The notes under the pieces were generated by a model, which saw only the letters and a list, made by a program, of their open reading frames with translations, searched no databases and was not told where the DNA came from. Shown piece after piece: positions 15,758 to 37,070 of a stretch of 64,000 nt of DNA; the stretch's first letter is position 1; every line of letters starts with the position of its first letter. This DNA is from Siderastrea radians. Taxonomy: Eukaryota; Cnidaria; Anthozoa; Scleractinia; Rhizangiidae. Position numbers and translations under genes: made by a program. The stretch covers positions 12,534,071 through 12,598,070 of the forward strand of contig OZ024892.1 in the NCBI GenBank assembly GCA_964017195.1. Direction: 5' to 3'.

Positions 15758-15900
15758 AGTAGTATAACCCGACACTTTGGGACATTGAATCAAAAAGGCC
15801 TACCCCCCAACTTTTTAAACCAATGAGAGACTCGTGCCATTCCTTTTTATCATGTGATCCCGGTCAAGAGAATGGACCAATGAGGGTGGGGGTCAAAGGT

Positions 15901-16060
15901 CATTCAAGATGGCGGCTGATGGTGGGAGTGTGTTTTGGGGTAGGAGACCGCTGACCAGGAGGCAAAAAAGATCGCGGGCTCATTCAAGATGGCGGCTGAT
16001 GGTGGGAGTGTGTTTTGGGGTGGGAGACCGCTGACCAGGAGGCAAAAAGATCGCGGGCGC
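15901..16060 (+). repeat. 80-bp tandem repeat x2 in left TIR
   Basis: Units 15901-15980 and 15981-16060 both run from CATTCAAGATGGCGGCTGAT to GATCGCGGGC. Each unit holds one copy of the GCTGACC...GATCGCGGGC module that recurs at 17402 and 17511. Confidence 0.85.
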
Positions 16061-16326
16061 AGCACAACAGAAAAAAAGAGACGACCAGGAGGATGTTGGC
16101 AATGTGGCTTTTAATGACAATCATACTTTATACACGACACTGTTCTTGAAGAATCGTCGGCAAAAACATGCAAAGTTAGGAGGACGAGCTGGACGCGATC
16201 GTTCGTGGGGGTTTCTTTCTACCTTCATTTATCAGAGGAGTGAAGCAGTTTGTGGTATGTTGATGCAGCTTCTTGTCCAACGGAAAAGGTTTACGACGAA
16301 CATCTCTGTTATTTTCGGTGTGTAGC

Positions 16327-17025
16327 TCAAGATGATTCTAAACACGAGGGATCCGAGGTGCCACAGAGACCGCAACAATGTTCGTCGGGTGGGATGACAC
16401 ACCCTGCGTCTATACAACGTTGACAGGTGACACTACCCCAATTGGTATCCCAAGAGGTAGGTTTCCAAGTGGTATCGGTATCGACGGGTAAGACTTGGTG
16501 ACAAATTTTGCAGGGATCTCGAATGTCGTCGCGCTCACACCAATGAAAGGAAGGGAAGGTAAGTTTGTGTTCTTCTTTCTGCTGGATATTGGTATCGAGG
16601 CCTTGAAACCATCGATCGAGGGTCCGTTGTTTGACTTGAAGGTCTTGATTTTGTTCTTGGTAATCGGATGGGTAAGAACAGCCGGGATGAAAATGTCCTT
16701 TGCACCAGGCTTTGACAAAGGCGTGGGTGTCAATGGAGGTTTTGGGGGAATTGTTACAGAGTAGAAGTCCTTCGGTGGTTCGACGTTGTTGAAGGATGGC
16801 ATCGATATTCAAGGGGACAAAATGTTGGTAGATGGTACATGCCAGGGTGGGATTTTCTTGATGATAACGAGAATGGGCCAAGACGACTTCTCCTTTGTAT
16901 TTTTTCTTGCCGACGGTTTGCGTGGGATGATAATTCAATGGCATTTCTTCGAGGAGGAGATCGATTTTGCTACCGAGATTAAGATTGCGTATAATGCGTC
17001 GGACTTCATTGGCTAGGTCCTCCAT
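16327..17025 (-). CDS. Cys-rich zinc-binding-type protein, left TIR copy (232 aa)
   Basis: The first Met after the penton-tail fragment is at 17025 (MEDLANEV); the frame also stays open upstream through that fragment to 17151, so an N-terminal fusion is possible. The C-terminal third has many cysteines in CxxC pairs (CKICH, CQRC, CCGLC and others), which suggests two or three zinc sites. The rest has no domain I know. An identical gene lies in the right TIR (35802-36500), so the element carries two copies. Location at the ends fits a regulatory or end-binding protein, but this is inference only. Confidence 0.6.
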   Translation of the reverse strand: MEDLANEVRRIIRNLNLGSKIDLLLEEMPLNYHPTQTVGKKKYKGEVVLAHSRYHQENPTLACTIYQHFVPLNIDAILQQRRTTEGLLLCNNSPKTSIDTHAFVKAWCKGHFHPGCSYPSDYQEQNQDLQVKQRTLDRWFQGLDTNIQQKEEHKLTFPSFHWCERDDIRDPCKICHQVLPVDTDTTWKPTSWDTNWGSVTCQRCIDAGCVIPPDEHCCGLCGTSDPSCLESS

Positions 17026-17163
17026 GCTGGCTCGGGTAGGAAATGAAGGAAGGTAGGGGATGGCGTTGACTTTTTCTAGAGAGTTGAAGGGTAACGACCG
17101 TGTTGCCTGATTTGAAGGGAGCGGGTTGTCCATTGGCTGTTTGAATGTCAATGTGAATGGTGT
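17025..17163 (-). pseudogene. 3' fragment of a penton-like gene in left TIR
   Basis: The minus strand encodes DIQTANGQPAPFK.GNT..TLQLSRKSQ, matching the last ~32 codons of the penton-like gene at 19300-20352. About 75 of 86 DNA positions agree by eye. The homology starts exactly next to the internal terminus at 17164. It runs out at RKSQR, where the reading frame passes into unrelated residues. Confidence 0.75.
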
Positions 17164-17214
17164 AGTAGTAAGGGGGGTCGATATGGGACTTTGTATCGAA
17201 AAGGCCTACCCCCC
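17164..17214 (+). repeat. internal copy of the element terminus (left)
   Basis: AGTAGTA at 17164-17170 followed by TGGGACTTTGTATCGAAAAGGCCTACCCCCC mirrors the outer tip (AGTAGTA ... TGGGACATTGAATCAAAAAGGCCTACCCCCC at 15758-15808). Two weaker copies follow (about 17243-17277 and 17288-17314). The mirror copy is at 35613-35663. Confidence 0.85.
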
Positions 17215-17365
17215 ACATTCCATTCTGATGACGTCACAAAGCGATGGGACTTTGTATGGAGAAGGCCTACCCCTCGAGTTTGATAGGAATTTGGGATGGA
17301 AAAGACCCACCCCTAAACAATCAGAAGTGATGATCAGAAGTGATGACGTCATCAGAATGGAATGT
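17215..17365. repeat. 22-bp inverted repeat with TGACGTCA palindromes (left TIR)
   Basis: Arms 17215-17236 and 17344-17365 are exact reverse complements. Each contains the CREB/ATF-type palindrome TGACGTCA. The mirror pair is at 35462-35483 and 35591-35612. Confidence 0.85.
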
Positions 17366-17401
17366 TGTTGGAAATGAAGAGTTCACGTGTTTTTGTTTGG
17401 A

Positions 17402-17555
17402 AAACCGCTGACCGGTCTAGGAAAAGGAGATCGCGGGCTCAGATCAGCAAAGAGAGGACATTTCGTGACGCTTACATGACGTAGGGGAATCACCCTCTGG
17501 CTAGGGTGGGAAACCGCTGACCAGTTGGTTGAAAAAAAGGGGATCGCGGGCTCAA
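17402..17555 (+). repeat. iteron-like GCTGACC...GATCGCGGGCTCA modules 3 and 4
   Basis: ACCGCTGACCGGTCTAGG...GATCGCGGGCTCA (17403-17440) and ACCGCTGACCAGTTGG...GATCGCGGGCTCA (17513-17554) repeat the module found in the 80-bp tandem units near the tip. They lie just inside the internal terminus, as the outer modules lie just inside the outer tip. Confidence 0.75.
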
Positions 17556-17669
17556 AGGGTTGGGGTTCATACAGAGGTTTGATACCGATCGGATTTTTGT
17601 CGATACCGAGGTTCGATACCCCTCTCTTTTTTCCGATCCCGATTCGATGAGATGGTGGTGTTGGTGGGC

Positions 17670-17716
17670 AGCAGCAGCGGCGGCGGCGGCGGCGGCGGGC
17701 GCGCGCGCGCGCGCGG
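17670..17716. repeat. (GGC)n and (GC)n low-complexity run
   Basis: GCAGCAGCGGCGGCGG... passes into GCGCGCGCGCGCGCG. The same run occurs inverted at about 35112-35158. (GATC)4 lies at 17937-17953. Long ORFs here (polyalanine or polyarginine) are products of the repeat. Confidence 0.85.
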
Positions 17717-18117
17717 GGAATCGGCGGCCGCGGCGCGCGCTTGGCGCACGCTGTGGGGGAAACCAAGATCTTTTTAATGTGAGTTCGAATCCCGGTCGGG
17801 GGTGGAAAAAAACAATTTTTTTGGAAAAAAGCATGGAAATTTTTTTTTTTTTCGGGTCGAAGCGAGTAGGAGACAATGGATGGAAGAGTGTTTCTTGGGG
17901 ATTTGGGTGGGAGGGTTTTTTTTTTGGGTTAGAAGCGATCGATCGATCGATCGAGTTCGGCTCGGTTTGAAAAACAAAAATCCCTTTTTTAAAAAACAAA
18001 ACAAAAGAGAGTTGATTGATTTTATTTGGATGACACAGGTTTTTTTTTATTCATGTCAAGGTAGCCTGTGGACTCTGTCATGATCCTTCTTTTCTTCCCC
18101 TGGAGTTCTGTGTTGTT

Positions 18118-18259
18118 GTGAAGGAAACAAAAGGATCACCAAGCTGTCAACAGATTGCTTGCTTGCTTGCTTCACGTTCATTGAAATTGACTGGTGAAGG
18201 CTTCTTCTTCTTGTTTGTCATGGGCCAGAATAGTTTTGACGGTTTCGGTAATATCGTCC
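18118..18259 (-). pseudogene. orphan 3' end of the 34191-34649 gene at the inner TIR edge
   Basis: The TIR boundary cuts the coiled-coil gene of the right end at about codon 126. The left TIR therefore carries only its last ~27 codons, without a start, abutting the 3' end of the 18289-18804 gene. Confidence 0.75.
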
Positions 18260-18288
18260 CACCAGTTCTAGTGCTGATAAAGATGGTT

Positions 18289-18804
18289 TCAAGCTTGAGA
18301 CTGGATCCATTGGTAAAACAAATAGGTTTCTTGTTTGGGACAATGGTGGGTGGGTTTCGCGTGACGACCGCAGGTTAATCCTACATCAAACCCCATGGCG
18401 ATGAGTTTCTCGACTTTAGGACATCCAAAGTCTTCCAAGTTAATGCAAGGAATCTGTAGCTCGTTTAGTAGATTCTTTTCCAAATATCCTCCCTTGTAAG
18501 CTACCATGTATTGGTGTTGCGTTCTGCAACGATGATAGGCTGACTCGATCATGGTTTTGACCAGATGTTGAGGTAAGGCTTTTTCTTGCTTGCTCGATTC
18601 AAAGCGTAAGCCGTGAATATGATGGTAGATATAGTTGACCGTTTTACGATCTCGCTTTTCCAACGAGAGGTAAGGCAACTTGTTTTCCAAGAACCAGCTG
18701 AAACTCCCGTGCTGTAAACTGTAAACACCCATTTCCCTTACAATAAACGGTTGATGGTTCACTTGATACCCATCCAAATCGACAATCATACAGATTTGTT
18801 CCAT
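18289..18804 (-). CDS. 171-aa protein, possible RNase H-fold (DEDD exonuclease-like) protein
   Basis: Starts MEQICMIVDLDGY. A first acidic motif (DLDGY, residues 9-13), a central VAYKGGYLEKNLL block and a C-terminal Cys/His-rich part (CGRHAKPTHHC) are arranged as in small DEDD-exonuclease-like proteins I recall from invertebrate mobile elements. The assignment rests on pattern only, and the classical DxE first motif is not present. It is the last gene of the minus-strand block, ending 30 bp from the TIR. It diverges from the 19012 gene across a region with two TGACGTCA sites. Confidence 0.45.
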   Translation of the reverse strand: MEQICMIVDLDGYQVNHQPFIVREMGVYSLQHGSFSWFLENKLPYLSLEKRDRKTVNYIYHHIHGLRFESSKQEKALPQHLVKTMIESAYHRCRTQHQYMVAYKGGYLEKNLLNELQIPCINLEDFGCPKVEKLIAMGFDVGLTCGRHAKPTHHCPKQETYLFYQWIQSQA

Positions 18805-19011
18805 GTTGTCTTCTGTCTAAAACAGAATTGATTTGGTTTAACTGTCACCCTAAATAGGTACAGACTTGCCCCATGACGTCATAACCGTCTTTGTCGGTAG
18901 ATTGCTTGTCGGAACATGTCGAAACATACCCGTTGACGTCACAATCCACACCCACCTTGTTTTGTATATAGAAATTTTATTGCGCGCCTTTTCTAAAGGG
19001 AACGATCAAAG
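18805..19011. promoter_or_regulatory. divergent promoter with two TGACGTCA (CRE/ATF-like) sites
   Basis: The intergenic region separates the minus-strand 18289-18804 gene from the plus-strand 19012 gene. TGACGTCA occurs at 18874-18881 and 18934-18941, and TTGTATATAGAA at about 18960-18971 lies 40 bp before the ATG at 19012. Confidence 0.55.
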
Positions 19012-19230
19012 ATGGCCGGTTGTTTTCTCTATCTCTCGTCAAGTTTTAAGGATTGGTTTCTTTACAAGACACACTTGTACCTGTGTAAGCAGTTGTATGA
19101 ACCTACTGACTTACCGGAACCGACAGACGATCCTTTACAGGCGATTGAACTCTGTCAAGGGAATATCGGGCGTTGGATCGTGTTTATGGTCTGGTTGGAA
19201 ACCTGTCCGAGCGCGTTTCCTTGTTTTTAA
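19012..19230 (+). CDS. 72-aa hypothetical protein, paralogue of the 125-aa gene at 30399
   Basis: Begins MAGCFLYLSSSF about 40 bp after a TATA-like box. Its end (NIGRWIVFMVWLETCPSAF) resembles NLYRWVVFVLWLKAHPNAW in the minus-strand gene 30399-30770, so both belong to one family. It is aromatic-rich with a hydrophobic segment of about 10 residues. Function unknown. It lies 69 bp before the penton-like gene on the same strand. Confidence 0.5.
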   Translation: MAGCFLYLSSSFKDWFLYKTHLYLCKQLYEPTDLPEPTDDPLQAIELCQGNIGRWIVFMVWLETCPSAFPCF

Positions 19231-19257
19231 GGAGCCTTGGGAGGTCAAGGTCCTTAC

Positions 19258-19272
19258 ATAGGTATAAAAAAG
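19258..19272 (+). promoter_or_regulatory. TATA-like box of the penton-like gene
   Basis: AGGTATAAAAAAGG lies about 35 bp before the ATG at 19300. It would exclude the upstream in-frame ATG at 19237 as the start. Confidence 0.55.
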
Positions 19273-19299
19273 GCAACCATGGGCTATTTTGTTGTCACC

Positions 19300-20352
19300 A
19301 TGAGTTTCTACATCACCCTCCTCAGTGATCAAGCGCAAGGCACGGGTCAAAAATTTACTGCCAGACTTCCTCATTCACATTATCTGGTAGAAGATGATTG
19401 GGAAGCGGCCTTGGTGCATATCTCACACCCTGGTTTTAATCAACAATTGGGAGATCAAACCAAGCAGAATTGGACGCAAGAAGATAGTCAAAAACATTGG
19501 ATGAAAACAGATATCAGATACATACCAAAACGCGGCGATGGAACGGCTCCCATTCAAGTCACCAAACAAATCCATTTACCGCCAGGGTATTACCACAATT
19601 TGAAAGAAGCATGGATCGCCATCGGTTACGAAATGGAAAAACAACACATGGAAGTCATGATGGATATAGCCAAAATGGACGTGGACGATCAGGCTAAACG
19701 ACGAGAACTAGCCGCTCTCAACCTGGCTCAACCCTACGTGAAAATCACCAATGCCGGCATTGCCTCCGAATTAGATTCCTTGTATGTACTCATTCCAGCC
19801 AACATGCAATTTGAAATGGAATGGAAATTAGCTGGCTTGATGGGATTGGTGAAAGATGGAACGCGTACGGAACGCGTGGTCCAAGAAAAAAATTATCTGG
19901 TGAAACATATTGTGGATTACAACGATCGTCATAAATGGGAACCAACCACCGGTCCTGTAGCCAAATATCCCCCGTTGGGTCATGTTTCCGTCAGCTTTAC
20001 CCACCCCGATTTCGATTATTACTTCTTCTTGGGGCCGAATCTGAGTCGACAACCTTTTCCCAGTACGCCCACGGTCAAACCACAAGAAGGACAACAACAA
20101 CTCATGATTTACACCGATCTCGTCGCACAGAGCATTGTGGGAAATCAACAAAAAGGGTTTTTACGTACCATGGATGCCGGCAATACCGATCATCAGTTTG
20201 ATACCACGCAACGGATGTATTTTCCTCTTGGTAAAACGATCTTTGACAGCATTGCCATTGACATTCAAACAGCCAATGGACAGCCTGCTCCTTTCAAACA
20301 AGGCAACACCATCCTCACTCTTCAACTCTCCAGAAAAAGTCAACGGACATAA
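19300..20352 (+). CDS. penton/minor-capsid-like protein A (350 aa)
   Basis: The start at 19300 (MSFYITLLSDQ) matches the N-termini of the two paralogues at 27188 and 28255 (SFYVTL, then an RLP motif, then W-x-V/A-x-L). The upstream ATGs at 19237 and 19279 lie before or next to the TATA-like box. All three proteins end in a similar strand-rich segment with a leucine-rich L-x-L-x-x-x-R/K ending. From memory, this type is the single-jelly-roll or penton-like structural protein of Polintons. Unlike the other structural genes it is on the plus strand, converging on the PLA2 gene. A diverged copy of its 3' end lies in both TIRs. Confidence 0.65.
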   Translation: MSFYITLLSDQAQGTGQKFTARLPHSHYLVEDDWEAALVHISHPGFNQQLGDQTKQNWTQEDSQKHWMKTDIRYIPKRGDGTAPIQVTKQIHLPPGYYHNLKEAWIAIGYEMEKQHMEVMMDIAKMDVDDQAKRRELAALNLAQPYVKITNAGIASELDSLYVLIPANMQFEMEWKLAGLMGLVKDGTRTERVVQEKNYLVKHIVDYNDRHKWEPTTGPVAKYPPLGHVSVSFTHPDFDYYFFLGPNLSRQPFPSTPTVKPQEGQQQLMIYTDLVAQSIVGNQQKGFLRTMDAGNTDHQFDTTQRMYFPLGKTIFDSIAIDIQTANGQPAPFKQGNTILTLQLSRKSQRT

Positions 20353-20375
20353 AAACAGGACGTGGTTGTTTACAT

Positions 20376-20399
20376 GGGGTCCCCCAGGAGGGGGACCCC
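20376..20399. terminator. GC-rich hairpin between convergent genes
   Basis: GGGGTCCCCC-AGGA-GGGGGACCCC forms a perfect 10-bp stem with a 4-nt loop, 24 bp after the stop of the penton-like gene. It may act as a 3'-end or transcription-blocking element; role inferred. Confidence 0.5.
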
Positions 20400-20446
20400 C
20401 CTCCCCCTCTCTGAGGTCCCATCAGGCCTAGCGGGGAACGACGCGA

Positions 20447-20617
20447 AACCATAAAAACAGAGGGTGCGCCTGGCTGGAGCATCTTATCATGACCACGAGA
20501 AATTATTGGAAGAGTTTGAAACATTCGAAGACGATTTAGAGGTGAAGGCAGAACGTGTCCAAAACAAGAGTCTTGCTGAACAATTAGAGAAGAGAGAGCA
20601 GCGGGGAGGTGTGTGAC
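20447..20617 (+). pseudogene. possible frameshifted small coiled-coil ORF
   Basis: CCATAAAAACAG (20449) lies about 40 bp before an ATG at 20489 whose frame closes after 16 codons. The overlapping frame reads a charged coiled-coil peptide (HEKLLEEFETFEDDLEVKAE) to a TGA at 20615-20617. A one-base shift would link the two, so it may be a broken small gene. Alternatively it is chance. Confidence 0.25.
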
Positions 20618-20789
20618 TTTTTAAAGCACATGAATGACAAATGGGAACAATTGAGATGTGGACGATCCGTTTGATTTGGATGATTCTGTTTCTTGAACAA
20701 AAAAAAAGACAGGTGCAGACATTTTCATTTTGTTTTATTTTCTCCCAAAAGAACACAACATGGACTGTAACACGAGGTGATTAAGACAA

Positions 20790-21149
20790 TTACAATTTTA
20801 AACGTTTCTTGGCTTGCATGATTTTTTTGACCACGCGTTCCGTCTTGGTTTTCTTGCCGGGTAACCGATCAATGGCTTGGATCATCTTGGTATCGGCTTT
20901 CCATTTGTCTTGCAAATTCTTGGCACGGCTGTAATCAATGTCGTGTTGTTTAGCAATCTGGTCCAAGCGATTGATCCCGGGATCTCCACGTTTCAGACGT
21001 TTGGCTAAATGCGTCCCAGGGCCCATGTACTGATAGCCAGGCCAATGAAATTCTTTCCCGGTTTTGGCGATCCATTTTTGGACATCCACCGCCCCACCGG
21101 ATTGGCGGCGTTTCCGTTTGACGCCCCGTCTCCTCCTCTGGGTGGGCAT
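20790..21149 (-). CDS. parvovirus VP1u-type phospholipase A2 protein (119 aa)
   Basis: The second Met (21149) is chosen because it gives the MPTQRRRRGVKRKRRQSGG leader that resembles those of neighbouring small genes. Residues 41-48 (YMGPGTHL) match the Ca-binding GPG loop, and H69-D70 with Y73 match the HDxxY active site of parvoviral PLA2; a downstream ADTKM segment also fits. In parvoviruses this domain opens endosomal membranes during entry, and the same role for particles of this element is inferred. The basic, GG-containing leader suggests packaging and possible protease trimming. It ends the minus-strand structural block. Confidence 0.85.
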   Translation of the reverse strand: MPTQRRRRGVKRKRRQSGGAVDVQKWIAKTGKEFHWPGYQYMGPGTHLAKRLKRGDPGINRLDQIAKQHDIDYSRAKNLQDKWKADTKMIQAIDRLPGKKTKTERVVKKIMQAKKRLKL

Positions 21150-21153
21150 CTTT

Positions 21154-21792
21154 TTACTCACTGTCGTAATCCAATCGACGTCGTAACTTTTTACCTCGGT
21201 GCCAATCTTCCCAACCGGGTAAGGGTTTTAATGCTTGCACTTCACGGGAGACGCCTTTGCCTTTACCTTTGCCTTTGCGACTGTCGGCTAACTTTTTTTC
21301 CAACGTCTTGCGTTGTTCTCGAATGGCTTCTAAACGCGATTGTAGATCCCCTCGACTGGTGGATGGGCTCCCTTTCTTGACAATTTTACCAGTGGTGACT
21401 GCTCCTTTGCCTTTCTTGGTGGCAGGGGTAATGGGTGGTTTGGGGGTGGACGGGCTGCCTTTTATCATGCGCTTCAACCATTGTTCCACGGGTCCCGTCA
21501 CCAAATCCCCGGCTTCTTCTTCTTCCTCGCCTGGCGGTGCACCCGGGGCACCAACCCCCACCCCGCCAGGAAATTGACGGATGCGTTTGGTTAACTTGGT
21601 TAATTCTTGACTCATCGGTTTGATTTGAGCATTGACCACGGCGGGGGGTAATTCGGGATTGGCTAACAAGACATGTTTTTTGGCGGCTAACGTGGCGGCT
21701 TTGTTCAACAAGGCATTTTCGGTGAGTTCTCCTTTGTAATATTGAATGAGTTGTTCCAAGTCCTTGTGGGGAATCATGTACACCTCGTCCAT
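21154..21792 (-). CDS. conserved Polinton/adintovirus-type hypothetical protein (212 aa)
   Basis: Begins MDEVYMIPHKDLEQLIQYY. The N-terminal ~70 residues look like a compact helical domain, followed by a glycine/proline/glutamate linker, a lysine-rich tail and a final coiled coil (residues about 160-185). From memory the N-terminal motif recurs in Polinton-associated proteins of many animals. It overlaps the upstream gene by 19 bp and stops 4 bp before the PLA2 start. A virion role is inferred from position. Confidence 0.6.
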   Translation of the reverse strand: MDEVYMIPHKDLEQLIQYYKGELTENALLNKAATLAAKKHVLLANPELPPAVVNAQIKPMSQELTKLTKRIRQFPGGVGVGAPGAPPGEEEEEAGDLVTGPVEQWLKRMIKGSPSTPKPPITPATKKGKGAVTTGKIVKKGSPSTSRGDLQSRLEAIREQRKTLEKKLADSRKGKGKGKGVSREVQALKPLPGWEDWHRGKKLRRRLDYDSE

Positions 21793-22010
21793 CGTTGACT
21801 ACAGTCAGAGCAAAGTTCCCCGTCTTCCACTGCACGACAGCTCTCACAAAGACGGGATCTCAACATATGTTGGTACTCTCGATACAACAGGTGATATTTA
21901 TGCTTCCAATAAGAACAGGCGTCTTTCCACTTGTCGGTGGCCCGATTGGCCTCTTGTAACAGGGTGATCCATGTGGCCAGGGTTAACGGGTCGGTCGAGC
22001 ACATTGACAT
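21774..22010 (-). CDS. small zinc-finger-like protein (78 aa)
   Basis: The ORF could begin at 22064, but Met codons at 22010 and 22004 lie after a CTATAAAAAGG box at about 22112. The C-terminal half has CESC and CSDC pairs, likely one zinc site. It overlaps both neighbours (28 and 19 bp), as expected in a tightly packed viral block. Function unknown. Confidence 0.5.
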   Translation of the reverse strand: MSMCSTDPLTLATWITLLQEANRATDKWKDACSYWKHKYHLLYREYQHMLRSRLCESCRAVEDGELCSDCSQRWTRCT

Positions 22011-22309
22011 AACACGTGATGTAGTCCTTGAAACAATCCGCGTCCTTTTTGTTGGACCAACCACTGACGACGTTTTTTGACGGAATGTTGACGACGTCCC
22101 AAATCCCGTAGCACCTTTTTATAGGGTTGAAGTTTGGCCAGGATGGGTGGGGTGACGGGAATCTTGTTTTTTAAGAAGTTTAAGACCAGTTCACTCACAG
22201 CATTGATTTGATCGGCATTGGCATGTTGTAACAACTCTTGTCGTTTGGAGCCATTGGCTTCTTGTAACATGGACCGTAAAAACGGCAATTGACGTCGAAG
22301 ACGTTGCAT
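21983..22309 (-). CDS. 108-aa conserved Polinton-type protein
   Basis: Contains ADQINAVSELVLNFLKNKI and PYKKVLRDLG followed by a basic KKRRQWLVQQKGRG segment. I recall this helical-plus-basic layout from small proteins encoded beside Polinton capsid genes in many invertebrates. The QKGRG sequence is similar to the GG-type leaders of neighbours. A role in the particle core is inferred. Confidence 0.6.
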   Translation of the reverse strand: MQRLRRQLPFLRSMLQEANGSKRQELLQHANADQINAVSELVLNFLKNKIPVTPPILAKLQPYKKVLRDLGRRQHSVKKRRQWLVQQKGRGLFQGLHHVLCQCARPTR

Positions 22310-22312
22310 CGT

Positions 22313-22483
22313 TTACCGAGGACGGCGACGATAGCGTTGGTTGGCTTTTTGAATGGTGCGTTTTATACGTTTATCCGTTTCCAAGGCCACGGCTTTCCCC
22401 AATCCCGCCATGGCGGGGACCAATAGATTTAAAAAACCGCCTCGTTGACGACGACGTCGTCGTCGTCTCCTCAAGGATACCAT
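22313..22483 (-). CDS. small basic protein (56 aa) with RRRRRRRRQRGG leader
   Basis: The start MVSL is followed by eight arginines and QRGG, then a short hydrophobic stretch (FLNLLVPAMAGLGKAV) and a basic tail ending RYRRRPR. It is 3 bp from the downstream gene and overlaps the upstream gene by 13 bp. The leader is shared with the genes at 22471, 26692 and others. Resemblance to adenovirus core peptides (short, arginine-rich, protease-processed) is in character, not alignment. Confidence 0.65.
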   Translation of the reverse strand: MVSLRRRRRRRRQRGGFLNLLVPAMAGLGKAVALETDKRIKRTIQKANQRYRRRPR

Positions 22484-22665
22484 GAGTGCAACAACACACG
22501 TTGAAGGGCTTTGTTTTGTTTGATGGCATCTCGCGTCTCTTTATAGCCTTGACGGGTATTGCGTTTGAAATCTTGCCACCAGCCACGGCCTTGTTGTCTG
22601 ATTAAACCCCCTCCTCTTTGACGTCGTTTCCTTTTTCTGCGTCGTCGTCGTCGTTGGACGGCCAT
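22471..22665 (-). CDS. small basic protein (64 aa) with RKRKRRQRGGG leader
   Basis: Begins MAVQRRRRRRKRKRRQRGGG and continues with a tryptophan- and glutamine-containing basic domain. A GATAAAAAGCC box lies about 35 bp upstream. It overlaps the 3' end of the membrane-protein gene by 64 bp. Probable DNA-condensing or core protein (inferred). Confidence 0.65.
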   Translation of the reverse strand: MAVQRRRRRRKRKRRQRGGGLIRQQGRGWWQDFKRNTRQGYKETRDAIKQNKALQRVLLHSWYP

Positions 22666-23288: not shown

Positions 23289-23293
23289 CCTGA

Positions 23294-23950: not shown

Positions 23951-23996
23951 GATGATGATGATACTACCCAGGGGAAAAAAAAGGCACCTTTTTATT

Positions 23997-24083: not shown

Positions 24084-24113
24084 GTCACCGTTTTTTCCAA
24101 CGAACTTTTTTAT

Positions 24114-24653: not shown

Positions 24654-24663
24654 CTTCTTTTTT

Positions 24664-26064: not shown

Positions 26065-26066
26065 GT

Positions 26067-27151: not shown

Positions 27152-27187
27152 GATGATTGACTGGGAGTTCCTTCTCATCTCTCTTTT

Positions 27188-28237: not shown

Positions 28238-28254
28238 GTTTGTCTTCTTCTTCT

Positions 28255-29298: not shown

Positions 29299-29304
29299 GC
29301 CTGT

Positions 29305-30453
29305 CTAGTCGCGTCGTCGTCGTCGTCTTTTGTTTTTCTGGGGTGGGCTTGTCTCTTTCTTTGTCTGGGGCGGTCGGAGGGAGGTCACGTCTCCCCTAGC
29401 AATCCAACTGTTGTACTTGTCCGGCCACCCTTTCCACTTGACCAACAGGCGATCATTTTGACGCTTAAGTACCTTTTCGATACGAAACACATCGGACACG
29501 TGTACTTTTTGTAAATCCTCCTTGTAAAACGTGCCATCGACGGGCGTGTCATCCCATTCGCGAATCTTGTAGGTGGGCACAGGACCCGGCACCACACGAT
29601 GCACGACAAACACTTCTTCGGTCCAACCGGGTAAATACCCTTTTTCAAACGTACGATGAATCTTGTTGAGACGCACACGATCCCCTACTTTGAATTTGGG
29701 TTGGGAGTGTTTTCTTTTCAAACGTTTCTCGTACAGGCGTTTCCACACGGCTTCATCGTTTTCCCACGTCACGTCTTGAGGGGCCATACCAATACTTCGA
29801 TGACGTGTGGCATTGTAGCCTTGGACCAACTCGGGTAACACATTGTCAAATTTCAACGTGTTGGCAGCAGTGAAATAGCGGTACAAACGTTCTTTCAAGG
29901 TGCGGTTAAATCGTTCCACCACACTCGCTTTGGCATCCCCTTGGGTAGAAAAATGCTGGATTCCTTGCTCCTCGAGCCAACGTTGAAACGTGCGATTGTA
30001 AAATTCCTTCCCTCGATCCGTTTGCAATCGATTGGGACGTCGACCTCCTTGTTTCAAAATCTTGTCAAACGCTTGGACCAAAGCCACCCCCGTTTTGCCT
30101 TTCAACGGTTGCACCCACGCGTATTTCGACAACACATCCAACACCGTCAGTAAATACCGAATGCCACGATTATACTTGGCCAAGGGTTGTACTTCCACCA
30201 AATCCGCCACCCATTGATCGTCTAAGCCTCCTACGATCACGGGCAAGGTTGGAAAACGACGACGTCGAGGTTTATGCAACGTGTAGGCCAAATCCCGTTC
30301 CAAGATCCGTTGGGCTTTTTTCAAGGGGAGGTGATGGGCCTTGGCAAACCGTTGCACGCCTCCTAAACTGCCCGGGGCTCGAGGATCGTGGTAACGGGTC
30401 AACCATGATTGCGAGACATCGAGTTTCGTTCGTTTGGTCTTTCGAGGCGCCAT
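29305..30453 (-). CDS. retroviral-type integrase with chromodomain (382 aa)
   Basis: A basic N-terminal part is followed by the rve core with D84 (WVADLV), D146 (QTDRGKEF) and E180 (SVVERFN), giving the D-D-E triad. An SH3-like basic region follows, then a chromodomain at about residues 321-352 (VLKRQNDRLLVKWKGW), and an arginine tail. Polinton integrases have this rve plus chromodomain architecture and make 6-bp target duplications, as found here (CATGTG). The frame is complete. The start overlaps the upstream gene by 55 bp. Confidence 0.93.
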   Translation of the reverse strand: MAPRKTKRTKLDVSQSWLTRYHDPRAPGSLGGVQRFAKAHHLPLKKAQRILERDLAYTLHKPRRRRFPTLPVIVGGLDDQWVADLVEVQPLAKYNRGIRYLLTVLDVLSKYAWVQPLKGKTGVALVQAFDKILKQGGRRPNRLQTDRGKEFYNRTFQRWLEEQGIQHFSTQGDAKASVVERFNRTLKERLYRYFTAANTLKFDNVLPELVQGYNATRHRSIGMAPQDVTWENDEAVWKRLYEKRLKRKHSQPKFKVGDRVRLNKIHRTFEKGYLPGWTEEVFVVHRVVPGPVPTYKIREWDDTPVDGTFYKEDLQKVHVSDVFRIEKVLKRQNDRLLVKWKGWPDKYNSWIARGDVTSLRPPQTKKETSPPQKNKRRRRRRD

Positions 30454-30770
30454 ACTTTCTCACACTCATCCCACAAGGTGTGTATGGAAGGGATGGTGTG
30501 GGGATGCGCCTTTTGAATGATTCGATACCATCGCCATGCGTTCGGATGAGCTTTTAACCATAAGACAAACACCACCCATCGATACAGGTTGCGGTCTACA
30601 TGGGTTTCTTCAAAGATCTGGAGAGGAGGCGTATCCTCGGGACATGGGGGAATGGGGATTTTGACACCGGGTTGATGATCATATAAGACTTGGCAAAGGG
30701 ATTGATGGCATTGCCATTGCACCAGGGACAACAAACCCTCCCACGCATAACACAACCACACAGACTCCAT
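30399..30770 (-). CDS. 123-aa hypothetical protein, paralogue of the 19012 gene
   Basis: The start at 30770 (MESVWLCY) is preferred over 30776. A CTATAAAAGG box lies about 40 bp upstream. It is rich in Trp and Cys, and NLYRWVVFVLWLKAHPNAW is shared in pattern with the plus-strand 19012-19230 gene. The other half has a proline-rich PIPPCPEDTPP stretch. Function unknown. Confidence 0.5.
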   Translation of the reverse strand: MESVWLCYAWEGLLSLVQWQCHQSLCQVLYDHQPGVKIPIPPCPEDTPPLQIFEETHVDRNLYRWVVFVLWLKAHPNAWRWYRIIQKAHPHTIPSIHTLWDECEKVWRLERPNERNSMSRNHG

Positions 30771-30883
30771 GGTCACACTAATAAAAATTTTATTCTACAA
30801 CATCAGCCTTTTATAGATTTCACAAGTCAAAAAAAGTCAAAAGAGCGCGCGTATTTCATTTTACCGGCGCCCCGGTCGATGAT

Positions 30884-30887
<4 letters not shown>

Positions 30888-30921
<34 letters not shown>
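30888..30921. repeat. 34-base poly-T homopolymer
   Basis: An uninterrupted T run (poly-A in the sense of the flanking minus-strand genes) between the 123-aa gene and the GRF gene. It could mark a captured cDNA tail or slippage at a polyadenylation region. Confidence 0.8.
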
Positions 30922-30992
30922 CCGGACCTGCTTTTTCATTTGTTTTTATCATGTATCATAATCATTGTTCATTAAAAACAGTTCGTGTGTCT

Positions 30993-31664
30993 TTACTTGG
31001 TCGTGTCTTGTCTTTGTTTTTTTCGGTTCTTGGGTTTCAAGGGTTTGTCGGCCCATTGAAAGAAAGGACATCGATCCTCGGGTGTTTCTTTGCATGTGAA
31101 ATAAGGGCGGTTGGGGTTGGCTTGGGATCGGCTGATTCGTAAGACCACGGGTTCTTCACAGTCACACACCAGGGTTCTTTTGAGATAATCAGGATGGAGT
31201 TTTTCATTAATGATCTTGAGATAAGTGGCGATTTGATCTTGATGACAAAAGAGGCCACATTTCTTTTCTTGGCATTTGATGTAAGTGTCTCCTGTGGTTT
31301 GGGCTTGAAAGCAAGTTAGGTCTGTTTGATGCATAGGGCAGACAACGGATTGACAAGCTTGTTCCATAGGCGGTAGTTGTACTTGATAACTAGCAGCAGG
31401 CGGATTTAACAAATTGAGAATATTGTCACCATTGAATAAGTCATCCATATTGATGAGCGGTGTTGGTGGCGGCGGCGGTACTGGTGGTGGTGACAATGTG
31501 GTCGTTGTAGGTGTTGACGGTACTGGTGGTGGTGAAGAAGGATCCACTTGGGGTGGTTTTTTGATTTTGATTTTTTTGTCTTTTTTGGACTTTTTCTCCG
31601 TGGGTGCAGGGGGTAAAGCAGTGACCATCTTTTCGAGTTGTTGCAAAGGTCTCTTCGTGGCCAT
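30993..31664 (-). CDS. GRF-type zinc-finger protein (223 aa)
   Basis: Residues 1-100 are low-complexity: a lysine-rich stretch, then long proline/threonine runs. A Cys/His cluster follows (C109, C118, C131, C136, C140), then a zf-GRF motif with C167, C169, C191 and C199 followed by FFQW. GRF fingers bind single-stranded nucleic acid in topoisomerases and nucleases. A single-strand DNA-binding or transcription role in the element is inferred. TATAAAATAG lies about 45 bp upstream. Confidence 0.7.
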   Translation of the reverse strand: MATKRPLQQLEKMVTALPPAPTEKKSKKDKKIKIKKPPQVDPSSPPPVPSTPTTTTLSPPPVPPPPPTPLINMDDLFNGDNILNLLNPPAASYQVQLPPMEQACQSVVCPMHQTDLTCFQAQTTGDTYIKCQEKKCGLFCHQDQIATYLKIINEKLHPDYLKRTLVCDCEEPVVLRISRSQANPNRPYFTCKETPEDRCPFFQWADKPLKPKNRKKQRQDTTK

Positions 31665-31776
31665 GGTGAATTGAAGAGAGAAAGAATGAAAAAAAAGAAC
31701 ACGCTATTTTATAGGCGATGATGACGTGATGTTGACGTGATCTTAGCTAGGATTGGTGGAGACAAAAAAATAAGGG

Positions 31777-32295
31777 TCAACGTTCAGGTCCATCGGGTAT
31801 GTCGATGCCCGCCCATCCACGTTGACGTAAGGTTGCACGTGACCACCCAAAAATGTTATCCACGTCTTCATGTGTCAAACCCAAAAGTTCATAGGTGAAC
31901 GTACTAAATTGGTGTCGAAAAGACACGATTTCTTCTAAAATTTGTTCTGTCACGATGTCGGGGCTCGTGATGTGCACGATGAATTCGATGTCGTTAGGTT
32001 GCCAACACGGGACGTCCATGTGATATTGGGTCAGTAGATTGCGCCACGATTGATACACCAAATCCAAAGACAGATGGCGTAACCCTTCTTTGATGGCCTC
32101 ATTAATATGGCGCATATGAAGTAATACTTCTTCACTGTAAACGGGTTGAGTGGGTGGTTCTAGATCGTGCACGTGACGATGAATATGTTTGAGAATGGCC
32201 ACGATCCAACATCGTTTCCATCGGCATTCGACCATTTCTTGATAAAAACGAGTGTTATAATCGATATTGCCGCTTGCAGTAAAAGGAGATTCCAT
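31777..32295 (-). CDS. 172-aa hypothetical protein
   Basis: Start at 32295 (MESPFTASG), after a hydrophobic extension that runs into the promoter region. It is helical, with several His and Trp residues and no domain I recognise. It is the first gene of the minus-strand block, transcribed from the divergent promoter region at 32296-32448. Confidence 0.5.
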   Translation of the reverse strand: MESPFTASGNIDYNTRFYQEMVECRWKRCWIVAILKHIHRHVHDLEPPTQPVYSEEVLLHMRHINEAIKEGLRHLSLDLVYQSWRNLLTQYHMDVPCWQPNDIEFIVHITSPDIVTEQILEEIVSFRHQFSTFTYELLGLTHEDVDNIFGWSRATLRQRGWAGIDIPDGPER

Positions 32296-32448
32296 TTTAG
32301 GGACTTGTTTTGTTTTTTGGTCTCTCCATACATTGAACAAATAAAAAGTGATGAGTGGTGCCTGTATATATAAGAAAAAGAAGCTGTCAATCAAAACAGT
32401 CTATATATCACCTTTCTATCTTTTCAACGCATCATTTTTTTTGTTAGC
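32296..32448. promoter_or_regulatory. divergent promoter between the two gene blocks
   Basis: Contains TGTATATATAAGAAAAAG (about 32362-32379), readable as TATA on both strands, and GTCTATATATCACC (about 32398-32411) about 40-50 bp before the plus-strand start at 32449. All genes to the left (except those near 19-20 kb) are minus; all to the right are plus. Confidence 0.6.
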
Positions 32449-32976
32449 ATGGCAAGTAACACCGAGTCCGACGATGATCTTAATGACTTTATGGATTTAT
32501 GGGAACAGGAAGGTGGTGCTGTACCGCAACGACGCAACCATTATCAATTTCGACGTGTTAAATTCCGAGAACGTCAAGCCAAGAGCTATGGAATCACACG
32601 TACAAGCTATCACTTACGCGTGGAAAACCCGCCAGAGAGTTTTCCAGAAGGGCATGGCAATATTGTGCGCGCGTTTGAAGAAGGATTGGCGGATCAAATC
32701 GAAGATCTCACGCGTAATATGCCGGACCATGACAGAATACAAATCTATTTATCTTCCAACCGACTTCAATCGGTCCACACCTCAGCCAATGTAACTATCG
32801 GCGATTGGCGAGACCCCTTATCCGGGGCCCGCCGCATATTGGATCAGATTAGTAAAATGTTGAACTCAAATGAGAACTTTGAAGTCGACGACAGTTTGCA
32901 GTTGGATGTGACGCACATCACCATGCCAGATGGTGTAACACCTGTCGAGCTCGTTTCGAGACGGAAGAGGATATAG
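32449..32976 (+). CDS. 175-aa protein like the N-terminal region of Polinton polymerase B
   Basis: Contains MPDHDRIQIYLSSNRLQ and the segment LDQISKMLNSNENFEVDDSL. I recognise this from the N-terminal, pre-exonuclease part of polymerase-B-type proteins of related elements, not from a search. Here the frame ends in TAG shortly after. The next 70 bp read in another frame as a short CxxC peptide, followed directly by the SLOG gene, so no exonuclease or polymerase motifs follow. It may be a retained free-standing domain or the stub of a deleted polymerase. Confidence 0.65.
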   Translation: MASNTESDDDLNDFMDLWEQEGGAVPQRRNHYQFRRVKFRERQAKSYGITRTSYHLRVENPPESFPEGHGNIVRAFEEGLADQIEDLTRNMPDHDRIQIYLSSNRLQSVHTSANVTIGDWRDPLSGARRILDQISKMLNSNENFEVDDSLQLDVTHITMPDGVTPVELVSRRKRI

Positions 32977-33046
32977 AACTTTGTTCGAGCTGTTCACGTC
33001 GAATACAAAAAGAACCCCACGTTGAACACACCTTAATTATTTAACC

Positions 33047-33748
33047 ATGCCGACGAGTCACTACCACATCTACAGCGGAGGAGCCATTGGCATCGACGAA
33101 TATGCAGAACAATGCGCTAAAGAATATGGCATGCAGATGCATATTATCATACCACCCCAACACAGTCGAAGCAAATTTATCACACCACTCCGTCAACAAG
33201 ATCTCAACGAAGCCGAGCCGCACTTAAAACGAGCCGGAGAAAGAAGTGGCAAACACTTGTTTACTCCAAATACGTTTTCACGCCATCTTCAACTACGCAA
33301 TTTTCACATCGTCAAACCTGCCACCATCGTGTACGCTTTTGGTTATTTCCAACACACAAATGACATTAACTACACAGCAGCACGTGACATTTACCATGAC
33401 ACCACCTTGAAAAGGCAAAGCATTCAAGGAGGAACGGGATGGACGGTGCAATTGGCTGTCGATCAGCACAAACAAATTTATTTTTACAACATACCAGAAA
33501 AACGATGGTACGAAAACCATCAAGATCATTATTATTGGAACGAAAATCAATGGACATCTTACAGTGGATTTATTCCAATGCAAGGATCACCCACGCTTCA
33601 TAAACACAGCGCCGTAGTAGGAACAAGACACCCCCCACCAGACACTTTGGCCGAAGTCAAAAGGCTCTTTCAAACCACCAGTTCTTTAGAAAACATTGTT
33701 GATAAAAACAGTGATCTTTACAGTCACATTCAAGAACATGGCGACTGA
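33047..33748 (+). CDS. SLOG-superfamily (DprA/LOG-type Rossmann) protein (233 aa)
   Basis: SGGAIGID at residues 10-17 is the nucleotide-binding G-loop pattern of the SLOG superfamily. A distinctive C-terminal part (about residues 95-170) carries RNF, YAFGYF and GGTGWTVQLA motifs. SLOG proteins bind nucleotides or nucleotide-derived ligands; in bacteria several sense signals in defence systems. What this one binds is unknown. The start at 33047 follows a 70-bp gap, and the stop overlaps the next gene by 11 bp. Confidence 0.7.
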   Translation: MPTSHYHIYSGGAIGIDEYAEQCAKEYGMQMHIIIPPQHSRSKFITPLRQQDLNEAEPHLKRAGERSGKHLFTPNTFSRHLQLRNFHIVKPATIVYAFGYFQHTNDINYTAARDIYHDTTLKRQSIQGGTGWTVQLAVDQHKQIYFYNIPEKRWYENHQDHYYWNENQWTSYSGFIPMQGSPTLHKHSAVVGTRHPPPDTLAEVKRLFQTTSSLENIVDKNSDLYSHIQEHGD

Positions 33749-33992
33749 AGACCACAACACCACTTTCGAACAAATGATGGATGACATCACTCAAAACGAA
33801 GATCTGTCAATCGAACAAAAAATGAAACGTATTGGTCAATGCTTTAAAAAAGAAATGGAACGCATCAGTCGCGACTTTCAAACCCGCCTTCATCAAGACA
33901 TGGAACACGAACTACAATATCTCCGCACTCAACTCAAAGACATATGGAAACCTCACCTCACATGGAAACCCCAGTTACAATGGAAACGATAA
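33738..33992 (+). CDS. 84-aa coiled-coil protein
   Basis: Start at 33738 (MATEDHNTT), overlapping the SLOG stop; the longer frame from 33696 is rejected. Heptad-like charged repeats (about residues 20-60) indicate a coiled coil, followed by a Trp/Lys/Pro tail. Unrecognised. Confidence 0.5.
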   Translation: MATEDHNTTFEQMMDDITQNEDLSIEQKMKRIGQCFKKEMERISRDFQTRLHQDMEHELQYLRTQLKDIWKPHLTWKPQLQWKR

Positions 33993-34189
33993 AAACGGTG
34001 CATTTCCAAGAACACGTGGTCCGTTACACTTACCAATACGATCCATCCGCGCCCCTCGTACAAACGTCACCCCTCATCGATGATCGATCTCATCACGTCA
34101 CACCTTTCACTATAAAAAGACAATACCTCAAAGCTAAACTTCATTGGACTCATCTACAACGCAAGCAACAACAGCAACGACGATCTTAA
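33980..34189 (+). CDS. small hypothetical protein (69 aa)
   Basis: The frame opens at 33944, but ATG 33980 (METIKTVHF) avoids most of the overlap with the preceding gene. A Gln/Arg-rich end (RKQQQQRRS) stops 1 bp before the next ATG. Unrecognised; retained because of the tight spacing. Confidence 0.4.
   Translation: METIKTVHFQEHVVRYTYQYDPSAPLVQTSPLIDDRSHHVTPFTIKRQYLKAKLHWTHLQRKQQQQRRS
34108..34120 (+). promoter_or_regulatory. TATA-like box before the 34191 gene
   Basis: TCACTATAAAAAGAC, same type as the boxes in the minus-strand block, about 75 bp before the ATG. Confidence 0.45.
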
Positions 34190-34190
34190 T

Positions 34191-34649
34191 ATGGACTACT
34201 GCAAGAATTTAGATCCCAAAACCTTCAACAACACTCATGACTACATATTAGAACTGGTTCGACAAGGTCTACAAGCTGGTTATGATCTCGAAGACGTGAC
34301 CGAGCACTACAAAGAATTGATTCAAGATGAAGCCACCGCCATCATGAAAAATACCGAACACAACAAACTCAAAAAACAAATCCAAAGAGATTTGGACAAT
34401 CTAGCGGTCATTGACAGAAACAACACCATTGTCTTTCCTTTGGAACTAGCAGGACGAACCTACAAGACTGATGAACGAGACCAGTATTTTGAGGAGATTT
34501 TACAAAAGAGACTCGAACGACGACACAAAGTCAACAAACTGCGTGAAAGTGTTCTCCAACATAATTTGGACGATATTACCGAAACCGTCAAAACTATTCT
34601 GGCCCATGACAAACAAGAAGAAGAAGCCTTCACCAGTCAATTTCAATGA
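34191..34649 (+). CDS. 152-aa coiled-coil protein crossing the TIR boundary
   Basis: Charged, helical sequence from end to end (DYILELVRQGL; KLKKQIQRDLDNL). Codons from about 126 onward lie in the right TIR (from 34568), so the same 3' end without a start is found at 18118-18259. Last gene of the plus-strand block. Function unknown. Confidence 0.55.
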   Translation: MDYCKNLDPKTFNNTHDYILELVRQGLQAGYDLEDVTEHYKELIQDEATAIMKNTEHNKLKKQIQRDLDNLAVIDRNNTIVFPLELAGRTYKTDERDQYFEEILQKRLERRHKVNKLRESVLQHNLDDITETVKTILAHDKQEEEAFTSQFQ

Positions 34650-35461
34650 ACGTGAAGCAAGCAAGCAAGCAATCTGTTGACAGCTTGGTGATCCTTTTGT
34701 TTCCTTCACAACAACACAGAACTCCAGGGGAAGAAAAGAAGGATCATGACAGAGTCCACAGGCTACCTTGACATGAATAAAAAAAAACCTGTGTCATCCA
34801 AATAAAATCAATCAACTCTCTTTTGTTTTGTTTTTTAAAAAAGGGATTTTTGTTTTTCAAACCGAGCCGAACTCGATCGATCGATCGATCGCTTCTAACC
34901 CAAAAAAAAAACCCTCCCACCCAAATCCCCAAGAAACACTCTTCCATCCATTGTCTCCTACTCGCTTCGACCCGAAAAAAAAAAAAATTTCCATGCTTTT
35001 TTCCAAAAAAATTGTTTTTTTCCACCCCCGACCGGGATTCGAACTCACATTAAAAAGATCTTGGTTTCCCCCACAGCGTGCGCCAAGCGCGCGCCGCGGC
35101 CGCCGATTCCCCGCGCGCGCGCGCGCGCCCGCCGCCGCCGCCGCCGCCGCTGCTGCTGCCCACCAACACCACCATCTCATCGAATCGGGATCGGAAAAAA
35201 GAGAGGGGTATCGAACCTCGGTATCGACAAAAATCCGATCGGTATCAAACCTCTGTATGAACCCCAACCCTTTGAGCCCGCGATCCCCTTTTTTTCAACC
35301 AACTGGTCAGCGGTTTCCCACCCTAGCCAGAGGGTGATTCCCCTACGTCATGTAAGCGTCACGAAATGTCCTCTCTTTGCTGATCTGAGCCCGCGATCTC
35401 CTTTTCCTAGACCGGTCAGCGGTTTTCCAAACAAAAACACGTGAACTCTTCATTTCCAACA

Positions 35462-35612
35462 ACATTCCATTCTGATGACGTCATCACTTCTGATCATCAC
35501 TTCTGATTGTTTAGAAGTGGGTCTTTTCCATCCCAAATTCCTATCAAACTCGAGGGGTAGGCCTTCTCCATACAAAGTCCCATCGCTTTGTGACGTCATC
35601 AGAATGGAATGT
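35462..35612. repeat. 22-bp inverted repeat with TGACGTCA (right TIR)
   Basis: Mirror of 17215-17365: arms at 35462-35483 and 35591-35612. Confidence 0.85.
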
Positions 35613-35663
35613 GGGGGGTAGGCCTTTTCGATACAAAGTCCCATATCGACCCCCCTTACTACT
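35613..35663 (-). repeat. internal copy of the element terminus (right)
   Basis: Mirror of 17164-17214. TACTACT ends at 35663 and is followed directly by the penton-tail fragment. An element bounded by the two internal termini would be 17164-35663 (18.5 kb). Confidence 0.85.
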
Positions 35664-35802
35664 ACACCATTCACATTGACATTCAAACAGCCAATGGACA
35701 ACCCGCTCCCTTCAAATCAGGCAACACGGTCGTTACCCTTCAACTCTCTAGAAAAAGTCAACGCCATCCCCTACCTTCCTTCATTTCCTACCCGAGCCAG
35801 CA
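35664..35802 (+). pseudogene. 3' fragment of a penton-like gene in right TIR
   Basis: Same fragment as 17025-17163. Reads DIQTANGQPAPFKSGNT..., then LSRKSQ, then passes into the leader of the Cys-rich gene. Confidence 0.75.
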
Positions 35803-36500
35803 TGGAGGACCTAGCCAATGAAGTCCGACGCATTATACGCAATCTTAATCTCGGTAGCAAAATCGATCTCCTCCTCGAAGAAATGCCATTGAATTATCAT
35901 CCCACGCAAACCGTCGGCAAGAAAAAATACAAAGGAGAAGTCGTCTTGGCCCATTCTCGTTATCATCAAGAAAATCCCACCCTGGCATGTACCATCTACC
36001 AACATTTTGTCCCCTTGAATATCGATGCCATCCTTCAACAACGTCGAACCACCGAAGGACTTCTACTCTGTAACAATTCCCCCAAAACCTCCATTGACAC
36101 CCACGCCTTTGTCAAAGCCTGGTGCAAAGGACATTTTCATCCCGGCTGTTCTTACCCATCCGATTACCAAGAACAAAATCAAGACCTTCAAGTCAAACAA
36201 CGGACCCTCGATCGATGGTTTCAAGGCCTCGATACCAATATCCAGCAGAAAGAAGAACACAAACTTACCTTCCCTTCCTTTCATTGGTGTGAGCGCGACG
36301 ACATTCGAGATCCCTGCAAAATTTGTCACCAAGTCTTACCCGTCGATACCGATACCACTTGGAAACCTACCTCTTGGGATACCAATTGGGGTAGTGTCAC
36401 CTGTCAACGTTGTATAGACGCAGGGTGTGTCATCCCACCCGACGAACATTGTTGCGGTCTCTGTGGCACCTCGGATCCCTCGTGTTTAGAATCATCTTGA
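35802..36500 (+). CDS. Cys-rich zinc-binding-type protein, right TIR copy (232 aa)
   Basis: Same protein as 16327-17025 by the translated frames. Starts MEDLANEV and ends after a GLCGTSDPSC cysteine cluster. The only complete gene wholly inside the TIRs, hence two copies per element. Confidence 0.6.
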   Translation: MEDLANEVRRIIRNLNLGSKIDLLLEEMPLNYHPTQTVGKKKYKGEVVLAHSRYHQENPTLACTIYQHFVPLNIDAILQQRRTTEGLLLCNNSPKTSIDTHAFVKAWCKGHFHPGCSYPSDYQEQNQDLQVKQRTLDRWFQGLDTNIQQKEEHKLTFPSFHWCERDDIRDPCKICHQVLPVDTDTTWKPTSWDTNWGSVTCQRCIDAGCVIPPDEHCCGLCGTSDPSCLESS

Positions 36501-36766
36501 GCTACACACCGAAAATAACAGAGATGTTCGTCGTAAACCTTTTCCGTTGGACAAGAAGCTGCATCAACATACCACAAACTGCTTCACTCCTCTGATAAAT
36601 GAAGGTAGAAAGAAACCCCCACGAACGATCGCGTCCAGCTCGTCCTCCTAACTTTGCATGTTTTTGCCGACGATTCTTCAAGAACAGTGTCGTGTATAAA
36701 GTATGATTGTCATTAAAAGCCACATTGCCAACATCCTCCTGGTCGTCTCTTTTTTTCTGTTGTGCT

Positions 36767-36926
36767 GCGCCCGCGATCTTTTTGCCTCCTGGTCAGCGGT
36801 CTCCCACCCCAAAACACACTCCCACCATCAGCCGCCATCTTGAATGAGCCCGCGATCTTTTTTGCCTCCTGGTCAGCGGTCTCCTACCCCAAAACACACT
36901 CCCACCATCAGCCGCCATCTTGAATG
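36767..36926 (-). repeat. 80-bp tandem repeat x2 in right TIR
   Basis: Mirror of 15901-16060; units 36767-36846 and 36847-36926. Confidence 0.85.
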
Positions 36927-37070
36927 ACCTTTGACCCCCACCCTCATTGGTCCATTCTCTTGACCGGGATCACATGATAAAAAGGAATGGCACGAGTCTC
37001 TCATTGGTTTAAAAAGTTGGGGGGGTAGGCCTTTTTGATTCAATGTCCCAAAGTGTCGGGTTATACTACT

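Follow-up and report, generated by a model that had tools for sequence, protein, structure and literature searches.

We have analysed a 64,000-nucleotide stretch of the Siderastrea radians genome (contig OZ024892.1; hereafter the window) and find that it carries a 21,313-bp derivative of the Polinton group of virus-type elements in whose core no DNA polymerase gene was detected. The element is one copy of a multi-copy lineage and no one-off, and it retains, as a separate gene designated p175, a homologue of the N-terminal part of a family B DNA polymerase (polymerase B). The lineage is probably satellite-like: an internal deletion would have removed the polymerase and spared the primer, p175, with copying provided in trans by a polymerase-bearing family of the same genome (family C). 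The features on which this account depends are as follows, in window coordinates.

15758-37070: whole element, with target duplications CATGTG at 15752-15757 and 37071-37076
15758-18259, plus strand: left terminal inverted repeat (TIR) of ~2.5 kb, starting with AGTAGTA and holding a second AGTAGTA at element offset 1407 (window 17164)
34568-37070, minus strand: right TIR, with an internal AGTAGTA at offset 1408 counted from the right end
32449-32976, plus strand: p175, stand-alone homologue of the polymerase B N-terminal (D1, terminal-protein) part

Absence of a polymerase was investigated by comparing all six frames of 18260-33261, with X at stops, with Pfam at E<=0.1. No polymerase, primase or helicase family was matched in this region; the three plus frames gave no match whatever, and the minus frames returned rve, Chromo, rve_3, phospholipase A2 (PLA2), GRF, SLATT, exosortase-like and AAA_16 families, several of which serve as internal controls. 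For 33262-34567 and the TIRs, the Pfam check was made via open reading frames (ORFs) only. The biggest gap between core gene models is 565 bp. A previous reading of the element made without database searches (the sequence-only reading) held that neither strand of the core encodes a polymerase, helicase or other replicase, a statement with which the six-frame search agrees but which overlooked a replication-gene remnant, p175.

Own-genome searches (804.8 Mb, 439 contigs) indicate that the polymerase-less arrangement is common. At least 91 capsid gene copies are present (the best 91 of 2,163 candidates), all full-length or nearly so, stop-free and 93-100% identical. The best 150 of 1,227 candidates for the DprA-like gene of the element were scored, and their identity classes define three families: family A, to which the window element belongs, with at least 45 DprA matches at >=94% identity (44/45 without a stop), family B with at least 17 at 60-81%, and family C, a large group at 43-49%. 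A stop-free capsid gene lies 8,115-8,388 bp from DprA in 41 of the 45 A matches (8,380 bp in the window), the other four having no partner among the best 91 capsid copies listed; among the listed matches of the other families, such pairing is found in 2/17 (B) and 7/61 (C). The 20 A loci with the best scores among the 45, one of them the window, all show the gene order p172-p175-DprA-p152, and their match to p175 spans residues 1-175 in 17 and residues 1-159 in three. On the left side, 750-bp stretches were sampled from 20 of the 39 paired A copies that had not been read whole. All 20 stretches contain the TIR-side sequence and 18 the gene exo18289, and a polymerase match was found in none of them. 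In one A copy read whole in pieces (C5:50184853), polymerase similarity is confined to p175. Target duplications differ between the two A copies compared.

Homology of p175 to the N-terminal part of eukaryotic protein-primed polymerase B is established by sequence comparison, with blastp matches at 3e-15 against three sequences, 97.6% in hhalign and, with the polymerase as tblastn query against the window, a p175 match at about 1e-11; identity to the primer part of the family-C polymerase is 25-30%. The AF2 model of p175 is middling and gives the order beta-beta-alpha-beta-beta-alpha-beta. Y-family polymerases account for 47/50 VIA rows and 31/50 of the Foldseek PDB rows listed for this middling model, mostly through their C-terminal little finger/PAD, and matches to a little finger/PAD-like fold have been published for D1 and terminal proteins (PMC11071308). 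The same paper places the Ser or Tyr of terminal proteins and D1 between alpha2 and the last strand, with a Gly or Pro that breaks the helix close to the linking residue. In p175, Ser149 is invariant in 7/7 aligned rows, and the model places it in the loop that links helix 126-140 to strand 150-158, the last predicted strand; no helix-breaking Gly or Pro occurs within ten residues of it. Comparison of p175 with PDB sequences gave nothing significant, and a viral fold library gave no match at E<=0.001, an adintovirus protein ranking third and mavirus polymerase ninth amid unrelated rows. On sequence and model, p175 looks like a stand-alone primer domain of the terminal-protein type, from which we infer primer activity. 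A second primer domain was considered in p172, for which the profile comparison was not significant.

Polymerase-bearing relatives occur in the same genome. Three family-C elements, read in pieces, each carry a polymerase frame of 1,355-1,358 aa on the PLA2 side, and the one frame scanned matches polymerase B (PF03175) at 3.4e-43. At least 34 polymerase copies were found in the genome (the best 34 of 2,514 candidates), 31 of them without a stop. No A match (of 45) and no B match (of 17) has one of these best 34 within 30 kb, a supportive result rather than proof; 9/82 C matches have one. In comparison with the window, the C elements are nearly the same in the capsid (94% identity), ATPase (94%), protease (88-94%), PLA2 (95-98%), penton-1 (93%) and integrase (87-89%), and divergent in penton-2 (52%), GRF (35-40%) and DprA (40-41%, or 45-48% in most genome matches); exo18289, p172 and p152 were not found in the three examined. 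The sequence-only reading offered as one possibility a satellite-like lineage replicated by a related element, and the existence of polymerase-bearing relatives with nearly the same main virion genes strengthens that proposal. Between A and C, identity is 93-98% for the capsid and several virion genes and 40-48% for DprA, a disparity from which modules appear to have been exchanged between the elements. The polymerase adjoins the PLA2 side in the three C elements and p175 adjoins DprA in A; deletion alone therefore does not turn the C layout into that of A.

The ends of the elements are shared as well. In each of the seven elements examined (two A, two B, three C), the ends are AGTAGTA and the 6-bp target duplications are perfect, so that a single replication-integration machinery could serve all of them. 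In the window element, the 6-bp duplication and near-identical TIRs reported by the sequence-only reading were recovered: CATGTG is present on both sides, and the TIRs, about 2,501 bp, differ by two mismatches and one indel, 2,468 nt being 100% complementary. Given this near identity, the insertion is probably young. It interrupts a host retroelement with 288-nt long terminal repeats that are 99% alike (14485-14772 and 41724-42011); when 60 bp from each flank are joined, an open BEL/Pao Gag-like frame runs across the empty site, the BEL/Pao type of the retroelement being assigned from its proteins. AGTAGTA occurs at only four sites in the window element, both strands counted. At the internal site on each side, a 100-bp fragment of the penton-3 3' end (17064-17164 and its mirror) abuts the motif. 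These nested ends are most simply read as the insertion of an older element into another element's penton gene, after which both sides acquired a copy of the new outer end; the composite outer cap would fit end-to-end copying of a linear form. Outside the element, the left flank contains a polymerase B relic (2851-3192 and 3559-3753, plus strand), which comprises a stretch of 115 C-terminal residues (60-61% identity, E 1e-35) and a primer-domain-like piece of 67 residues (36%). Elsewhere in the window, minus-strand frames at 54199-56427 and 63235-63714 have translations that we take to resemble Dicer-type exons.

A trace of the lost polymerase is observed in one copy of family B. In this copy, L049, the last 37 residues of the polymerase are found ~30 bp past p175, in another frame (51% identity, E 1-2e-5); a tail of this kind would remain after the internal loss of ~1,100 codons. 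The p175 gene is constrained, the ratio of nonsynonymous to synonymous substitution rates (dN/dS) being 0.23 for A versus B2 (dN 0.14, dS 0.60; Fisher 6e-9) and 0.20 for B1 versus B2 (Fisher 1e-11). Other genes compared between A and B2 give 0.18 (DprA), 0.18 (p172) and 0.27 (p152); the capsid gives 0.14 for A versus C, the polymerase within C 0.18, and exo18289 0.96 for A versus B1 on five changes. Substitution patterns thus indicate that purifying selection on p175 is real, because a copy in decay would raise dN/dS. A recent internal deletion, the other possibility put forward by the sequence-only reading, is correct as to the deletion but seemingly not as to its age: the event looks old, because the scar is in a family-B copy and p175 is common to A and B and constrained.

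Combined, these observations suggest the following course of events. In an ancestor of Polinton or adintovirus type, internal deletion would have removed the greater part of the polymerase B gene, with the N-terminal domain surviving as the separate gene p175. This domain would be the counterpart of the terminal protein whose hydroxyl group starts copying at the ends, and p175 may prime the ends of its own element. We infer that the family-C polymerase B then copies the DNA in trans, the template being linear and extrachromosomal; the AGTAGTA ends and the majority of virion proteins, which family C has in common with the element, would qualify it as helper. The copy would be packaged, or re-inserted by the integrase. 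Chances slightly favour the more specific version, an endogenous virus-satellite pair in which the free primer of family A loads the polymerase of family C onto A ends and in which swapped virion genes make a near-same particle possible.

Several results count against this account. A polymerase tail after p175 was found neither in the other B copy nor in 21 A loci. L049 is degraded elsewhere, and its deletion could be its own. Constraint on p175 is borderline for A versus B1 (dN/dS 0.39, p 0.05), and if the deletions were independent, part of the constraint may predate them.

Other explanations of how the lineage persists have been weighed against replication by family C. Movement by host-only means, that is integrase-driven cut-and-paste with host polymerases alone and a different role for p175, is unlikely. 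It would be consistent with a complete integrase frame and no polymerase found, but the near-identical ~2.5-kb TIRs and the nested terminus at both ends suggest end-to-end linear copying, the constraint on p175 suggests a kept function, and near-identical copies are many. Dependence on an unrelated or exogenous virus, with p175 priming for the polymerase of a co-infecting virus instead of that of the endogenous family C, is also improbable. Virophage-type satellites are known, and the low identity between p175 and the family-C primer part would suit such a helper; however, family C, with open polymerase frames and the same ends and main virion genes, is present in the same genome, and IMG/VR scans with the capsid, integrase and DprA gave no relative, in a collection that may hold few animal viruses. 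It is very doubtful that exo18289, p172 or p152 is an unrecognised replicase. All three are found where the polymerase is lacking, none was detected in the three C elements, and p172 and p152 are conserved, but each candidate is <=172 aa with no Pfam or PHROGs replicase match, and exo18289 is missing from 2/20 A stretches. Least credible of all is a one-off or recently deleted defective copy of a polymerase-bearing family, the outcome that the sequence-only reading named as fatal to its proposal: close relatives with a polymerase and a deletion scar in a related copy would speak for it, but the A family of 45 largely stop-free DprA matches keeps its capsid spacing in 41 and lacks polymerase on both sides of the loci sampled, and its layout is not that of C with a simple deletion.

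The remaining genes of the window element are listed below.

16327-17133, minus strand: 268-aa ORF in the outer TIR cap, with a mirror copy at 35694-36500 (plus); its first codons overprint the penton-3 3' fragment
18289-18804, minus strand: exo18289, 171-aa protein, in A and B elements examined, not C
19279-20352, plus strand: penton-like protein 3, named after the sequence-only reading
20790-21149, minus strand: phospholipase A2-like protein (PF08398, 3e-11)
21154-21792, minus strand: Lys-rich protein, 212 aa, common to A, B and C elements examined
21983-22309, minus strand: basic protein, 108 aa, common to A, B and C elements examined
22602-23327, minus strand: SLATT_1-like protein (4.8e-5, below the Pfam cut-off), in all A, B and C elements examined
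23294-23950, minus strand: packaging-type P-loop ATPase (AAA_16 and Pox_A32, both below cut-offs)
24114-24734, minus strand: adenain-like cysteine protease (PF00770, Peptidase_C5, below cut-off)
24664-26064, minus strand: major capsid protein candidate, from a relative's label and gene order
26297-26623, minus strand: basic protein, 108 aa, of minor virion type by position
27188-28237, minus strand: penton-like protein 2, named as penton-like protein 3
28255-29298, minus strand: penton-like protein 1, named as penton-like protein 3
29305-30453, minus strand: rve integrase with chromodomain (Pfam 7e-13 and 8e-6), frame complete
30399-30770, minus strand: 123-aa protein overlapping the integrase start, common to A, B and C elements examined
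30993-31664, minus strand: GRF zinc-ribbon protein (Pfam 4.5e-9)
31777-32295, minus strand: p172, 172 aa, in A and B elements examined, not C
33047-33748, plus strand: DprA-like (SLOG) protein, phage-type (phrog_768, 7e-12)
34191-34649, plus strand: p152, 152 aa, whose 3' end enters the right TIR, so that the left side has a second copy of its tail

The gene set given by the sequence-only reading is retained with differing firmness. Integrase and PLA2 are supported by Pfam, ATPase and protease fall below cut-offs, and the names of the capsid and penton proteins are weaker, resting on gene order and the labels of relatives. Relatives of the capsid include Oculina patagonica records at 59-60% identity, one being labelled 'F54H12.2-like'; the Pfam match to Capsid_N reaches only E 0.17. 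Searches of PDB sequences returned nothing significant for the capsid profile, penton-1, the protease, exo18289 or the DprA-like protein. The 268-aa TIR ORF was considered as a replicase of the family and rejected: it was not found in the six other elements examined, its start overprints a penton-3 fragment, and it has no Pfam, PHROGs or significant PDB sequence match. The protein exo18289 is a putative nuclease, and its structure model is unusable (pLDDT 42). The gene is missing from two of the 20 family-A stretches (L072 and L074) in which the flanking TIR-side sequence is still there, and may therefore be dispensable.

The DprA-like protein matched 15 phage records at 20-30% identity. The same SLOG domain occurs inside giant frames of the Klebsiella phage Pylas (N4-like), where the frame is annotated as virion RNA polymerase, and of a crAss-like phage, where it is annotated as DprA-like. 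This phage-type protein recurs in S. radians elements at 43-100% identity, and a search of plasmids gave no relatives. SLATT-like and SLOG-type proteins occur together in one element; the name SLATT comes from bacterial immunity effectors. No relatives of the TIR ORF, the SLATT-like protein or p175 were found among phages.

Polintons (Mavericks) are defined by a chromodomain integrase, protein-primed polymerase B, double-jelly-roll capsid and penton, ATPase and adenain-type protease; 5'-AG ends are typical of Polintons and adintoviruses. The element resembles both in its rve integrase with chromodomain, TIRs, 5'-AG ends, 6-bp duplication, PLA2 and protease-, ATPase- and capsid-type genes and, in its family-C relatives, polymerase B. 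It differs from both in lacking polymerase B and in possessing a free primer domain, three penton-like genes and phage-type DprA-like and SLATT-like genes. Virophages such as mavirus are capsid-bearing integrating satellites. Adintoviruses are defined (PMC11071296) by a PolB with an N-terminal OTU-like domain and a hexon reciprocally recognisable by BLASTp, and no PolB was detected in the six-frame Pfam search of 18260-33261. The element is thus a derivative of the Polinton group which, by the definitions tested, is no adintovirus, and from which the defining Polinton gene is missing. Mavirus has a polymerase B and a helicase of its own (PMC11071308), whereas the polymerase is missing here. 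The strand/helix order, the Ser before the last strand and the little-finger/PAD-like matches, for p175 taken from the model, are shared with adenovirus and PRD1 terminal proteins and polinton D1; in the adenovirus and PRD1 systems, as that paper describes them, the partner polymerase comes from the same genome, whereas the window element encodes none.

Sets of virion genes without a replicase are already known. Meldviruses and adabscoviruses have virion genes of adenovirus or adomavirus class and no recognisable replicase, as described by Buck et al. 2024 (PMC11071296). Unlike the element described here, they also lack an integrase or are inferred circles; the element has kept its integrase and an identifiable polymerase remnant, and has polymerase-bearing relatives in the same genome. 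A survey of vertebrate Mavericks reported 96% of copies as defective (PMC8097293). Scans of IMG/VR with the capsid, a capsid alignment, DprA, the integrase and the TIR ORF, together with one bacterial-genome scan, gave no relatives. In a literature search covering titles and abstract starts, with most subscription journals outside it, no polymerase-less, integrase-bearing Polinton lineage with a free primer domain was found.

Within a single animal genome, if the account given here is true, Polinton-type viruses can give rise to their own satellites. The stand-alone primer domain would represent a natural split of priming from polymerisation in the Polinton group, and p175 makes the structure-based proposal that polinton D1 is a terminal protein directly testable. 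A helper and its satellite in one genome would, in addition, provide a system for asking how satellites affect their helpers.

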